Below are positions 6,216 to 50,521 of a stretch of DNA of 50,521 nt, in pieces (positions within the stretch are counted from its first letter, which is position 1; every line of letters begins with the position of its first letter). The notes beneath the pieces are model-generated. The model was not told the origin of the DNA and did not search any database. It was given only the letters and a program-made list of their open reading frames with translations. The position numbers and the translations under genes are program-made. This DNA comes from a virus: IMG/VR virus record IMGVR_UViG_3300011113_000657, positions 1-50,521 of that record. One strand, 5' to 3'.

Positions 6216-7013
6216 ATGTACTATATATATGCTTATCTAGATCCAAGAAAAAAATATATTTTTCAAACAAATGAATTTATTTTTGAGGCAGAGCCTTTTT
6301 ATATTGGGAAAGGTAGTGGAAATAGAGCTTATGACCATTTACAATCAAATTTCTTTAAAAAATATAATAATCCATTTTATTCTAAAATTGCATCAATTAA
6401 AAAAGAAAAATTGCAACCAATTGTAAAAATATTAAAATATTTTGATAGTGAAAAAGAATCTTATGATAATGAAGAAAATTTAATAAAAGATATAGGTTCA
6501 AATTTTATAGATGAAATAAAAAATGGGCCACTATGCAATATTTGTTTATCAGCAAAACCACCAAATCACAAAGGAAAAACCTATAAACAAATATATGGAG
6601 AAGATAAATGGCTAAAGGAATATAATAAAAGAATAGAAAGACAGAGGGCTGTTGGTGGATATTTTAAAGGACATAAACACACTCGAAAAACTAAAAAGAT
6701 TTTATCTAAAAAAACTGCATTAAATAATAAATTAAGAGCGCTTCAAGGCGAGTATATTTCTAAGGAAGGAAGAAAAAGTATATCAGAAAAAGCTAAAAAA
6801 AGATTGAAAGAACATCCAGAGAAAATACCAAGAAAAGAATATAAAATAATTAATCCTACAGGAGAAATATTCATAATAAAAAAGAATATAAGCCTAAATG
6901 ATTTTTGTTTAAAATATAATTTATCTAAATCTGCTTTACAAAAGACTTTATATTTCGATACTCAAATAACTAGAGGACGAACTAAAGGATGGAAATTATA
7001 TCATTTGATTTAA
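6216..7013 (+). CDS. GIY-YIG homing-type endonuclease
   Basis: This 265-residue protein starts with a GIY-YIG nuclease domain: YIY at residues 3-5, FYIGKGSGNRAYDHL from residue 28 with the catalytic arginine R37, and an NEEN segment near 85 that would supply the metal-binding glutamate. A basic middle part (GGYFKGHKHTRKTKKILSKK, about 148-167) resembles the NUMOD3 DNA-binding repeat. The C-terminal 55 residues (EYKIINPTGE..., then a short helix-turn-helix) resemble NUMOD1. This is the structure of free-standing phage homing endonucleases, which nick or cut homologous DNA to spread themselves. No intron interrupts nrdB here. The gene is preceded by a hairpin that could keep its translation low. 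Confidence 0.85.
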   Translation: MYYIYAYLDPRKKYIFQTNEFIFEAEPFYIGKGSGNRAYDHLQSNFFKKYNNPFYSKIASIKKEKLQPIVKILKYFDSEKESYDNEENLIKDIGSNFIDEIKNGPLCNICLSAKPPNHKGKTYKQIYGEDKWLKEYNKRIERQRAVGGYFKGHKHTRKTKKILSKKTALNNKLRALQGEYISKEGRKSISEKAKKRLKEHPEKIPRKEYKIINPTGEIFIIKKNISLNDFCLKYNLSKSALQKTLYFDTQITRGRTKGWKLYHLI

Positions 7014-7403: not shown

Positions 7404-7919
7404 GTGATTGTTTCAGAAAGAGATATTGATTTTTTTGCTAAGAAATTAGGTTTATCACCAGAAAAAACTTTTTTACTTATTCAAGATCCAGAATGTTTAC
7501 CAGAAATATTAAATAAAATTTGTGAAGATAATATAGATGGAATTGTAGATATAAGTTTTCCAGTATTTGCAGAAATAACAATAATAAAATATAGTAAAGA
7601 CTTAAAATACTCTTTTAAGGAAAAAGAATATATTTCTGAAGCAGTAGGTTTAAAATTTTATGATTTAATTGGAGAACCTATACTTAAAAAATCCATACTA
7701 GAATTTAAACACGATGAAGATACAGCGAAATCATTACTTGTATTTTTAGGATTTTTTTATAAAAATTTAAATAAACCAAGAAGAGCTTATGCTTCAGAAA
7801 ATACTTATTACAATATAGCCAAGAATGCTTTTGAAAATTCAGATAAAGAAGAAATATCTTATCATCTCAAAGACTGGATTAAAGTATTAAGAACTATACA
7901 TAATGAAGTTTGGTTCTAA
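7404..7919 (+). CDS. Hypothetical protein, 171 residues
   Basis: I do not recognise a family. The protein is soluble by composition, mostly alpha-helical, with a middle part rich in Lys and Glu and a Trp-containing C-terminus (HNEVWF). The GTG at 7404 is the plausible start; the ATG at 7402 overlaps it in a frame that stops at once. A 6-bp inverted repeat TTAACT/AGTTAA (7386-7391 and 7397-7402) sits directly before the start codon, and CTGTAA, a near match to the late-type box, lies 8 bases before it. It probably forms a short rightward unit with the membrane protein upstream. Confidence 0.6.
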   Translation: MIVSERDIDFFAKKLGLSPEKTFLLIQDPECLPEILNKICEDNIDGIVDISFPVFAEITIIKYSKDLKYSFKEKEYISEAVGLKFYDLIGEPILKKSILEFKHDEDTAKSLLVFLGFFYKNLNKPRRAYASENTYYNIAKNAFENSDKEEISYHLKDWIKVLRTIHNEVWF

Positions 7920-7920
7920 T

Positions 7921-8235
7921 ACGAAACCCTCAAATTATTTAACTTTTCTTTGATATCCAAAAGGGCTTTACCTCCAGATTCTGTATGTCTGAAGTTAAGT
8001 ATTATCAATCCAACTTTTCTTTTGACTCCAACTTTATCGTAATCTCAACGATAACGGGCCATCGCACTTACGGATCAGAGGTAGCTTCGATCACTACATT
8101 CTGCGATGCCTATAGCTACATTCCCTTCACAAGCCATATTATGTACAAACGAAGGTTTTAATAGTCGTCAGCCCTTGGGACGTTGCTATCTCAAGGATTG
8201 ATAGTTGATTATTTGACATCAACAAACTGCTCTAA
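7921..8235 (+). ncRNA. Candidate structured RNA of unknown class
   Basis: This stretch of about 315 bases has no good ORF and rises to about 40-47% GC in its 3' two thirds, well above its surroundings. It contains complementary segments that fit a folded RNA. TTATCGT/ACGATAA (8034-8040 with 8048-8054) is a perfect 7-bp hairpin. GGCCATCGCA (8057-8066) pairs with TGCGATGCC (8102-8110) with one bulge. GTAGCT (8081-8086) pairs with AGCTAC (8114-8119) to give an H-type pseudoknot. CCTTGGGA/TCTCAAGG (8173-8180 with 8189-8196) is an 8-bp hairpin with one G-U pair; alternatively AGCCCTTGG (8170-8178) pairs back to 7957-7967. GTTGAT/ATCAAC (8204-8209 with 8218-8223) closes the 3' end. It lies 308 bases before the tmRNA. 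Strand is inferred from neighbours. I see no RNase P, group I intron or tRNA signature. Confidence 0.55.
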
Positions 8236-8304
8236 TTGGAAGCTATGTTAAGTTATATACTATTATTTTTTTATTTTTTTGTCAAGTTTATTTATAATAT
8301 AGTA

Positions 8305-8514
8305 ATGGAAATAATTAAAAATAAAGCTAGATGGTCAGTTTACTCTAAAAAATGCATCAAGCATTATAATATTGATAATGATATTATTTCTGATGAACCT
8401 AATGAATATCCATGCATCGCTGTGCCTCAATTAATATCTGATGTAAATGGAGCAAGAATTAAATTCAATTTTATTTATAAAAAAGATTGTCAAAAACTAT
8501 TAAATAGTTTATAA
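8305..8514 (+). CDS. Small hypothetical protein, 69 residues
   Basis: I recognise no family. The chosen start gives a 69-residue basic protein (MEIIKNKARWSVYSKKC...). A TATAAT box (8293-8298) lies 6 bases before this ATG, the spacing used by leaderless genes elsewhere in the window, although no -35 box is evident. The frame stays open upstream to a TTG at 8236, which would add a 23-residue, almost wholly hydrophobic N-terminus. That extension is encoded by a T-rich tract and may be untranslated. Whether this is a membrane or a soluble protein therefore depends on the start. Confidence 0.45.
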   Translation: MEIIKNKARWSVYSKKCIKHYNIDNDIISDEPNEYPCIAVPQLISDVNGARIKFNFIYKKDCQKLLNSL

Positions 8515-8515
8515 T

Positions 8516-8521
8516 GTGTAA
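8516..8521 (+). promoter_or_regulatory. GTGTAA-class promoter upstream of the tmRNA
   Basis: The run AATGTGTAATTAGTATAAG contains the GTGTAA core (8516-8521) seen before virion genes. Initiation about 9-10 bases downstream would leave a leader of roughly 12-14 bases for removal from the tmRNA 5' end. TATAAG at 8527-8532 is a possible alternative -10 box. Confidence 0.45.
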
Positions 8522-8543
8522 TTAGTATAAGTTCTTTCTCATT

Positions 8544-8931
8544 GGGCCCGCACTGGTTTCGATTTTAGAGATCAGAATTAAAATGCAAGTGGAGGTTGAA
8601 TCGAGGACTCCTTAAAAAGTTTCAATTATATTAACTGCCAAAACAGCCAAATATAAAGGTCATATCTCTGCTAGAGTTTCTCTAGTTGAGGAGACCGCTT
8701 CTGTAGCTTAAGTTCTACAGCGTGACTACCTTGACACATCTATTGGATAGTTGCGTATTTAGATGTCTTTTCCTTTAAAGTTTTTTTATTCTTTATTGGT
8801 TCTGTATTCAAAATAAAATCGCTAAGTATGTTTGTTGTTTCTCTATATAAAGCTAAAAATAAAAACAACTAAACTTGTAGTATTTTAATTTAAATTTTTA
8901 AAAGACAGAGGTTCAACTCCTCTCGGGTCCA
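8544..8931 (+). ncRNA. ssrA: Transfer-messenger RNA (tmRNA)
   Basis: This is a complete one-piece tmRNA of about 388 bases, which rescues stalled ribosomes and tags the unfinished protein. GGGCCCG (8544-8550) pairs with CGGGTCC (8924-8930) and contains the G3-U70 pair that marks alanine acceptors. The T arm is AGAGG-TTCAACT-CCTCT just before it, and CTGGTTTCGAT follows the 5' stem as in known tmRNAs. Pseudoknot 1 is GGAG/CTCC (8591-8594, 8608-8611) with TTGAA/TTCAA (8596-8600, 8621-8625). The resume codon is GCC at 8637 and the tag frame runs 24 codons (begins AKTAKYKG, ends ETASVA) to TAA at 8709-8711. The stop lies in the loop of hairpin CTGTAG/CTACAG (8701-8706, 8715-8720), as in helix 5 of bacterial tmRNAs. 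CCA is not encoded, so host CCA addition is needed. Confidence 0.93.
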
Positions 8932-8983
8932 AGTAAACTAATTATATCCTAAATAAAATTAAAAATCTTAAAAAATACATTTT

Positions 8984-48712: not shown

Positions 48713-50521
48713 TTAACGCTTGCTATAATAAGTGCTACTTAAAATACCGCCAGGCCTTTGTTCTGCTACAAGAGTTCTGATGACCTGGTCTTTGATTTGT
48801 GAACTTAATAACTTTAATTTCTGATCTTGTTCTTCATTACTAGTACGACCTGTTTCAGAAGTAGATGTATTTTGATTATTTGACATATTGACTGTAATAT
48901 TTACATTATTTACAGAATTGTAATTACTGTCCGATATAATCCCCTCAGCTCCTGCATTTGAGGTAGATCCACCATTCGCAAACCTCTTGACTCTCCCAGT
49001 ATTTAAATCATCAAAGAATTTTTTGCCATATAAATTTACAGCTTCTCTGCGCATAACAAACTCTCCATCCATTAAGAGCGCTGGAATATTATCTTGATTT
49101 GATCCTCCTTTTGCAAATTTCTTAACTTGTCCACCAGAAGCAAGAAATGTTGATCCTGCAGCTCCAGCCCCCAAAAGGAAAGATAACCAAGCTCCTTTAG
49201 AAGCTGAGCTTTTTTGTTTATTATATTGATCCCTAATTTCTTGATTTAATCTTAGATTCTCTTTATATGCTTCTTCATTTGATTTACGTACATCATCTAC
49301 ATATTGAAGATATTTATCAATTTCATCAATTCTACTATTATAAAAATCTTCAGCTCTTCTTCTGGCTTCATTTTGAGGATTAGAAGAATCTAATATAGCT
49401 CTTAAATTTAAATTTGGTGCAATAGTCTTACCATCTTTTGGTCTATATAAAGTTTGACCAGTTTCTGGTACGGTAATTCCTTCAAAATCAGATGTAAAAT
49501 AATTATCATTAATAAAAGAAGCTTCTCCACCTCTAGCAAATTTTTGAACCCCTCCACCATATTTAAAATATTTAGAATCTCTCTCTCTATTATTAAGAGC
49601 TATGCCTGAAAAAGTATTAACACTTGAGGCACTATTAGACGAAGACTTTTGGGAAGCAATATGTCCTACAATACTTGTCATAATTGCTTGGACGCCAGCA
49701 TTAAATATAGCTTGTCGCGCTTCTCCACCAAGAAACTTTTTGGAAACTTTGCCTTCGTTTAACATTTGTAAATATTCTGGACCATATTTCTTAACAGCAT
49801 TTTTTCGTATAACATATTCTCCAGCACTTAGCATAGCAGGAACATCATCTTTTGTTCCAGATCCGCCAGTTACATTTCCACCAGAAGAATAGCCTTTTAT
49901 TAGTCCACCTTTTTTAAATCCAAATAAATTTCCAAAACCTCCACCGCCACCACCGCCCCCACCGCCCCCACCAAGTCCGAATATATTACTTGTGCTTCCA
50001 AAAAGTTTACCAAATAAAAGATTTGAACTAAACTCTAATGCAAGCTGTTGTATTTTATTAGATATATTAAGAGCAAACTTTTCAAATGCTTGGCCAGCAG
50101 TTACTGAACCCTGAGCAAATTCAAAGAAAGCATTATTAAATTCGCTCTTAATTGTTCTTGCTGTTTCTTTGGCTCCTAATTGTGCCTCACGAAATGAGTC
50201 TTCTGTTCTATAATCAAATTCATCAAAAAATGCTGCGCCAAAATCTTTTAATTGAGTTTCTTGACCAAGAATTCTGGCCTCTCTTGTTTCTTGTCTTCCT
50301 CCTCTAAAGTCTTCAGCAAATATACCTCCCACTTTTCTTTGATCTAATAATATTTTTTCGCGAAGAGCTTGTAGTCTTTTCCTATATTGATCTTCGGTAA
50401 TAATTGTTTTTTCTATATCTTTCTGATATTGCTCTTCTGTTATTTCTTTATTTGCAAGCTGGGCGTCTAATCTTTCTCTTCGGATTATTTCATCATTTAA
50501 TTGAGATCTAAGTTTTTCTGT
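48713..50521 (-). CDS. Tail tape-measure protein, C-terminal part
   Basis: The gene continues past the right edge; 602 C-terminal residues are visible on the minus strand, and the GTG at 50330-50332 is an internal valine. The N-terminal visible part is a charged helical coil (TEKLRSQLNDEIIRRERLD). FAQGSVTAGQAFEKFALNIS then leads to a segment like lambda gpH, followed by a long glycine run (GGGGGGGGGGF). Two copies of a tape-measure C-terminal module follow: DDVPAMLSAGEYVIRKNAVKK and DNIPALLMDGEFVMRREAVN, each preceded by a K-G-G-type turn. It sets tail length and helps in DNA entry. It is encoded opposite to the tail-tip operon. Confidence 0.85.
   Translation of the reverse strand, partial: TEKLRSQLNDEIIRRERLDAQLANKEITEEQYQKDIEKTIITEDQYRKRLQALREKILLDQRKVGGIFAEDFRGGRQETREARILGQETQLKDFGAAFFDEFDYRTEDSFREAQLGAKETARTIKSEFNNAFFEFAQGSVTAGQAFEKFALNISNKIQQLALEFSSNLLFGKLFGSTSNIFGLGGGGGGGGGGGGFGNLFGFKKGGLIKGYSSGGNVTGGSGTKDDVPAMLSAGEYVIRKNAVKKYGPEYLQMLNEGKVSKKFLGGEARQAIFNAGVQAIMTSIVGHIASQKSSSNSASSVNTFSGIALNNRERDSKYFKYGGGVQKFARGGEASFINDNYFTSDFEGITVPETGQTLYRPKDGKTIAPNLNLRAILDSSNPQNEARRRAEDFYNSRIDEIDKYLQYVDDVRKSNEEAYKENLRLNQEIRDQYNKQKSSASKGAWLSFLLGAGAAGSTFLASGGQVKKFAKGGSNQDNIPALLMDGEFVMRREAVNLYGKKFFDDLNTGRVKRFANGGSTSNAGAEGIISDSNYNSVNNVNITVNMSNNQNTSTSETGRTSNEEQDQKLKLLSSQIKDQVIRTLVAEQRPGGILSSTYYSKR

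Follow-up and report, generated by a model that had tools for sequence, protein, structure and literature searches.

GOLLD, which is over 800 nt long and combines a conserved 3′ domain with a variable 5′ domain, and ROOL, of about 600–660 nt, are large structured RNAs of phages. Both lie near tRNA genes, with lengths given as ~660 to over 800 nt, and both assemble into RNA-only cages whose function is unknown (PMC12286853). Here we describe a smaller RNA from an uncultured phage. The window, by which we mean the whole stretch of DNA analysed (50,521 nt), is a linear 50.5-kb IMG/VR virus sequence of 28% GC, and its genes, which include a lambda-J-like tail, a class I ribonucleotide reductase (RNR) and a DnaE-like polymerase, are those of an uncultured tailed phage. 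A first-pass annotation, made from the letters alone, had placed an unassigned structured RNA at 7921–8235, beside the tmRNA gene, and left open whether it was a relative of GOLLD and ROOL or a new class. The unassigned, structured and pseudoknotted RNA held up in our analysis; the kinship did not, since no model matched and both size and architecture differ.

Like GOLLD and ROOL, the RNA is phage-encoded, trans-acting by position and pseudoknotted, and it occurs in phages rich in translation RNAs. Unlike them (~660 to over 800 nt; PMC12286853), it has ~310 nt (284–327 nt for the conserved unit in all homologues, outside their lengths) and shows no sequence or covariance-model similarity to either. 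A search of 4227 Rfam families, including GOLLD, ROOL and HEARO, gave no match at E ≤ 5 in window positions 7850–8543 and none at E ≤ 10 in a clade D locus (L206), while another locus (L007) yielded a single chance snoRNA match (E = 4.6). No covariance model of RNase P RNA, group I introns or tRNA matched, in agreement with the earlier judgement by eye. HEARO/OMEGA guide RNAs gave no Rfam match and no IscB or TnpB gene adjoins the RNA, and the only tmRNA reported by ARAGORN and Rfam was the gene at 8544–8932. To our knowledge, concerted paired boxes such as those described below have not been reported for GOLLD or ROOL.

Other described RNAs offer partial parallels. With identical single-stranded, purine-rich motifs (here GGA-N4-AAAGAAAAGU) recurring on a structured body, the RNA would recall CsrB, CsrC and RsmZ; in CsrB, however, the motifs sit in many hairpin loops, whereas the two boxes of the present RNA occupy linkers within its pseudoknotted core, and no Rfam match was obtained. 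The resemblance to protein-titrating RNAs may thus be taken as an analogy, not as membership. The tmRNA is a pseudoknotted RNA of the same phages and a neighbour in clades A and B, but the RNA is a separate gene on the opposite strand, without a tRNA-like end or tag frame. The pRNA of phi29 is likewise a phage-encoded structured RNA with intermolecular potential, but the present RNA has no Rfam match, and pRNA is, as far as we know, confined to phi29-like phages and shorter. Very likely the RNA belongs to an undescribed class, with the reservation that the literature and its supplements were not exhaustively covered. Under a broad definition of the kind, as ornate phage RNAs without a known function, it forms a new class inside that kind.

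Homologues and coding potential

Homologues were gathered through loci encoding relatives of the neighbouring proteins, in which the stretch was present at 94% to 68% identity, and then by scanning IMG/VR with conserved motifs. This gave 66 distinct full-length homologues, all in uncultured IMG/VR phages. In a tree built without the boxes they form four clades: A with 36 sequences, among them that of the window, B with 9, a paraphyletic C with 5 and D with 16. A covariance model detected the RNA in 20 of 32 phage records, always as a single copy, with E values from 1e-25 to 1e-42, many of these matches being members of the model's training set. The RNA was kept in every long record examined from this phage lineage. 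The two records without it whose gene content was compared, of 112 and 162 kb, belong to distant phages and share little beyond RNR with the RNA-bearing ones, so this comparison singles out no partner. Among isolates, blastn of ~50,700 GenBank phage records returned only chance matches of 27–41 nt, and a covariance-model search of 398 Pseudomonadota genomes, run without a positive control, found no relative. Two motif matches in a genome collection, obtained with a pattern of wrong loop spacing, resembled unrelated DNA without a partner strand and were discarded. From the kind of record, and without data on sample origin, we infer that the phages carrying the RNA are a freshwater lineage.

The GC content of 7921–8235 is 38% against 28% for the whole window, as the first-pass annotation had observed, and 2.3% of the record's 315-nt segments are equally rich. 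Folding energies of the single sequence were ordinary (z = −1.5 on the plus and −0.8 on the minus strand). Thermodynamics alone therefore cannot decide the matter, and the comparison of homologues does. The absence of a good ORF, also claimed earlier, was confirmed: among homologues, the longest stop-free stretch measures between 26 and 73 codons on the RNA strand and between 24 and 98 on the other, with no constant frame. A protein-coding pattern of substitutions, which would have refuted an RNA, was not seen in the homologues. We also considered a gene or pseudogene, including one with TGA read as Trp on the minus strand, and rejected it because the frame is lost among homologues.

Strand, promoter and secondary structure

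The RNA gene spans about 7920–8249 on the minus strand, to which all coordinates of the RNA below refer. Upstream of it lie a −35 element TTGACA (8280–8285) and a −10 element TAGTAT (8257–8262). In 67 of 67 copies with a 5′ flank, TTGACA is exact, the spacer is exactly 17 nt and the −10 hexamer has the form TANNAT, that is, it starts with TA and finishes with AT. The conserved 5′ end of the RNA, ACAUA (8244–8248; identified in the 58-sequence alignment), begins a few bases downstream, and promoter spacing sets the 5′ end near 8249. An A-C opposition on one strand corresponds to a G-U pair on the opposite strand. The ratio of G-U pairs to A-C oppositions was 85:13 in clade A, 15:4 in clade B and 14:3 in clade C; in clade D it was 20:24, with 18 of the 24 A-C oppositions coming from two helices misregistered by gaps. 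The invariant promoter and the G-U excess indicate that the minus strand encodes the RNA, which runs downwards from about 8249, and the excess further implies selection at the RNA level. A plus-strand RNA is ruled out by the same promoter location and counts. The first-pass coordinates were thus sound, and it is the strand that has to be corrected to minus.

The 3′ end remains unplaced, since no terminator was predicted on either strand of 7700–8560. It falls, with some uncertainty, between the end of box 1 (7942) and about 7920, the convergent gene ending at 7919. In clades C and D (L135, L134, L123, L206, L058 and L007), a motif (G/A)TACACTT is conserved ~20–35 nt past box 1, followed further on by CTGTAA(C/A), before nrdA; these motifs are possibly the 3′ part of the RNA or a phage promoter.

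The architecture comprises ten nested helices and two pseudoknots, in the 5′ to 3′ order ACAUA, P1, P2, P3, P4/P4b (whose loop is a strand of PK1), P5, P6/P6a/PK2, P7, box 2, the P3 return, P8, AGG(U/G)AAAG, the PK1 return and box 1. Hairpin P1 (8229–8243) pairs 8242–8243 with 8229–8230 in the window and is longer in other clades, where its strands read GCCU/AGGC, GCUU/AAGC or UCGC/GCGA. Hairpin P2 (8204–8223; 8218–8223 with 8204–8209) covaries within and between clades. The central domain is closed by P3 (8195–8202 with 8004–8011), which reaches 14 bp in clade B and shows double changes. In the P4/P4b hairpin (8161–8189), 8186–8189 pair with 8161–8164 and 8179–8182 with 8166–8169; 100% and 92.7% of alignment cells are paired, with double changes, and the internal loop CAA × A is invariant. 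The loop strand of PK1 (8170–8176) pairs with 7961–7967, just ahead of which stands the invariant AGG(U/G)AAAG. Pairing in PK1 holds in 98.5% of cells with double changes in five of seven pairs, and its forms are AAGGGCU/AGCCCUU, GAAGACU/AGUCUUC, GAAGGCU/AGCCUUC, UAGGCU/AGCCUA, CAGGCU/AGCCUG, GGAGCU/AGCUCC, CAAAGCU/AGCUUUG, CAGAGCU/AGCUCUG and CGAAGCU/AGCUUCG. Hairpin P5 (8124–8155; 8151–8155 with 8124–8128) occurs as CCUUC/GAAGG, UUCCC/GGGAA, AUUGC/GCAAU and CCAGAA/UUCUGG. PK2 joins 8115–8119 to 8081–8085 in the P6a loop (GUAGC/GCUAC, GUGGC/GCCAC, GUAGG/CCUAC). P6 and the inner P6a (8060–8108) pair 8103–8108 with 8060–8065 and 8089–8092 with 8073–8076, each with double changes in three pairs. 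Hairpin P7 (8034–8054; 8048–8054 with 8034–8040) shows many stem types within clade A alone, and P8 (7972–7994; 7988–7994 with 7972–7978) was derived from the comparison of clades.

The main covariation test covered 31 pairs (P4, P4b, PK1, PK2, P6 and P6a) in 58 aligned sequences, with 500 shuffled alignments and slid pairings as controls. Standard pairs filled 94.3% of cells, compared with 79.8% in shuffled and 26–56% in slid controls. Double-change cells numbered 250 against 65 in shuffles, with no shuffle as high, and the covariation score was 0.416 against 0.167; none of the 500 shuffles reached this score or the 94.3% pairing. Two further measures were not separated from the shuffles: the number of pairs with a double change (36/500) and further pair types (500/500). 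In clade D alone, 96.8% of cells were paired over 59 pairs in 11 helices, and 16 pairs had double changes compared with 6.8 in shuffles (0/500). Relatedness among the sequences is left uncorrected by the shuffles; the slid controls account for it, and the changes fall in separate clades. The first-pass annotation had proposed a search for covarying pairs in homologues, and the 66 collected here covary beyond both kinds of control. It had drawn an H-type pseudoknot (8057–8066 with 8102–8110; 8081–8086 with 8114–8119) and a long-range pairing (7957–7967 with 8170–8178). The former is P6 with PK2 and the latter PK1, and compensatory changes across four clades support both. Taking the structured RNA, its strand, its promoter and the two pseudoknots together, we regard it as practically certain that they are real.

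Paired boxes and genomic neighbours

Outside the helices, the longest unpaired conserved stretches are two purine-rich boxes of 17 nt, ~70 nt apart: box 2 at 8013–8029 (GGAGUCAAAAGAAAAGU) and box 1 at 7942–7958 (GGAUAUCAAAGAAAAGU). Both have the form GGA-N4-AAAGAAAAGU, with AUUGGGAAGU instead in clade D. Apart from one extra A in box 2, which was set aside in the count, the two boxes share one and the same 11-nt core in every one of the 66 sequences. Six core states exist, (C/U)AAAGAAAAGU and CAUUGGGAA(GU/AU/GA/UU). On the tree built without the boxes at least seven core changes are required, each made by both boxes. Such joint change of two short sites is most simply explained by one external partner that reads both. 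A pairing of the clade D box with the P1 loop proposed by RNAalifold (CCCAAU × AUUGGG) is broken in L058 and L034 and does not track the box changes, and was rejected. No third box copy occupies a constant site in the phage genomes. In the window, a second exact copy of TCAAAGAAAAGT lies outside the RNA at 50331–50342 (minus strand), where a gene starts; chance alone should give each record one or two matches with at most one mismatch.

The tmRNA gene (8544–8932, plus strand; ARAGORN and Rfam RF00023) is complete, divergent from the RNA and separate from it. In clades A and B the RNA is its direct neighbour and is convergent to F4, a small gene that ends the RNR operon. The RNA of clades C and D is found upstream of nrdA, co-directional with it and 12–28 kb from the tmRNA, and that of some clade A records is far from RNR. 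The adjacency to tmRNA noted in the first pass therefore applies to clades A and B and cannot serve as a defining feature. The tree suggests that the position upstream of nrdA is the older state and the tmRNA-side position derived. No gene was a constant neighbour across all four clades, and a Pfam search of the proteins adjoining the RNA found no family, except for GIY-YIG and RNR genes further out. Only the RNA and its promoter are constant, in single copy and among differing neighbours. From this we conclude that the RNA acts in trans, with the tmRNA merely a neighbour; a promoter of its own and the absence of a fixed gene downstream are what is asked of trans-acting sRNAs. This conclusion rests on position and promoter, without transcript data.

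Several observations concern other genes of these phages. The tmRNA, also present in 19 of 20 RNA-bearing records searched, has an unusually long tag of 24 residues in the window (AKTAKYKGHISARVSLVEETASVA), which varies in relatives (e.g. AKPAKLKGSFSLRVSHKKEALIAA). A GIY-YIG (LEM-3-like) endonuclease gene (window 6216–7013), between nrdB and a gene for 112 aa, is missing in most relatives and found in one clade B record (L125), and is therefore probably a mobile insertion. A 40-bp stretch, TTTTCTTTGACTTAAATTAAATTTAAATTATATTTGA, precedes a gene with a borderline match to 8-oxoguanine glycosylase in five phages (L243–L248, G003:14415−; G034, G002, G001, G033); it is near-identical despite differing upstream sequence in several of them, which points to a strongly conserved promoter. 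Seven of these records keep an adenylosuccinate synthetase (PurA-like, Pfam 1.8e-80; L244, G003:36171−) with the motif GDEGKGK, PurA and PurZ-like forms not being distinguished. Between 10529 and 22851 of the window, ~13 genes resemble, by eye only, glycosyltransferases, methyltransferases and a GDP-mannose dehydratase.

Proposed function and rival explanations

The RNA is probably a working device produced early in infection, for which there are no transcript data and no known ligand. We infer that the phage would transcribe it from the host-type, sigma70-like promoter soon after entry. The pseudoknotted body may then form a rigid scaffold on which both boxes are offered to a single partner. 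The likeliest candidate is an RNA-binding protein, either from the host or a phage protein that co-evolves with the RNA, docking twice or as a dimer. The RNA would titrate or recruit this protein, much as CsrB-type decoys or ribonucleoprotein scaffolds do. We favour such a two-site decoy or scaffold only tentatively and short of even confidence; it is inferred, without an identified partner or binding data. The lack of an identified partner protein counts against it, and the co-change of the boxes would also fit pairing to a host RNA, the host being unknown.

In that case the boxes would be duplicate seeds of a base-pairing regulatory RNA that block or expose a host or phage RNA, with the body as a stabilising scaffold. 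The boxes are single-stranded, short and purine-rich and change in concert, as seeds for one target would, but a complement is wanting, and we consider this explanation unlikely without setting it aside. No segment of the RNA, the boxes themselves included, is consistently complementary to the boxes. No exact 11-nt complement recurs in the phage genomes: in the clade C records of 121 kb and 93 kb only the box itself occurs, and the same holds for clade D. When translation starts of 68 orthologous families were scanned, one match went beyond 20 permutations; it falls in a conserved upstream stretch resembling a promoter −35 region, probably untranscribed, and was rejected as an antisense target. 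The want of a consistent complement in the RNA and in the phage genomes speaks for the decoy or scaffold, leaving a partner other than the nucleic acids that were scanned. A compact fold with two pseudoknots is typical for ribozymes and guide RNAs, and a catalytic or processing RNA (ribozyme, RNase P-like or nuclease guide) might be considered. It finds hardly any support here, as ribozyme, RNase P, group I/II and HEARO models gave no match and no gene for TnpB, IscB, Cas or RT adjoins the RNA constantly.

Contacts through the boxes could also build homo-oligomers or cages. This RNA too is phage-encoded and pseudoknotted and occurs in phages with tRNAs and tmRNA, and GOLLD and ROOL, phage RNAs near tRNA genes, do form RNA-only cages (PMC12286853). 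However, it is half their size or less and without sequence or covariance-model similarity to them, its boxes are complementary neither to themselves nor to other segments, and it lacks a large 5′ linker region, so that an ornate RNA-only assembly is improbable. A role in cis, as leader of the RNR operon or as a DNA element whose boxes resemble an origin or iterons and which folds as RNA as well, appears very improbable. The RNA of clades C and D does immediately precede nrdA, with the same orientation, and the two boxes are direct repeats, but clades A and B have the RNA in convergent orientation to the operon and other records have it unlinked; it possesses a promoter of its own, and the G-U excess speaks for selection on the RNA.

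On the boldest reading that remains tenable, the new RNA class would be a single-copy core gene of these phages that acts as a two-site device against a host factor. The phages would retune its recognition sequence (from AAAGAAAAGU to AUUGGGAAGU or to variants), each time in the two sites simultaneously, as might happen in an arms race or when hosts are switched; we offer this as a possibility that is still open to considerable doubt. We know of few phage RNAs of such complexity. The RNA is compact, its structure is determined by covariation, and it is small enough to be synthesised, probed and solved. The partner can be approached directly through the way in which the boxes change jointly, and swapping boxes between clades is a ready-made experiment on specificity.
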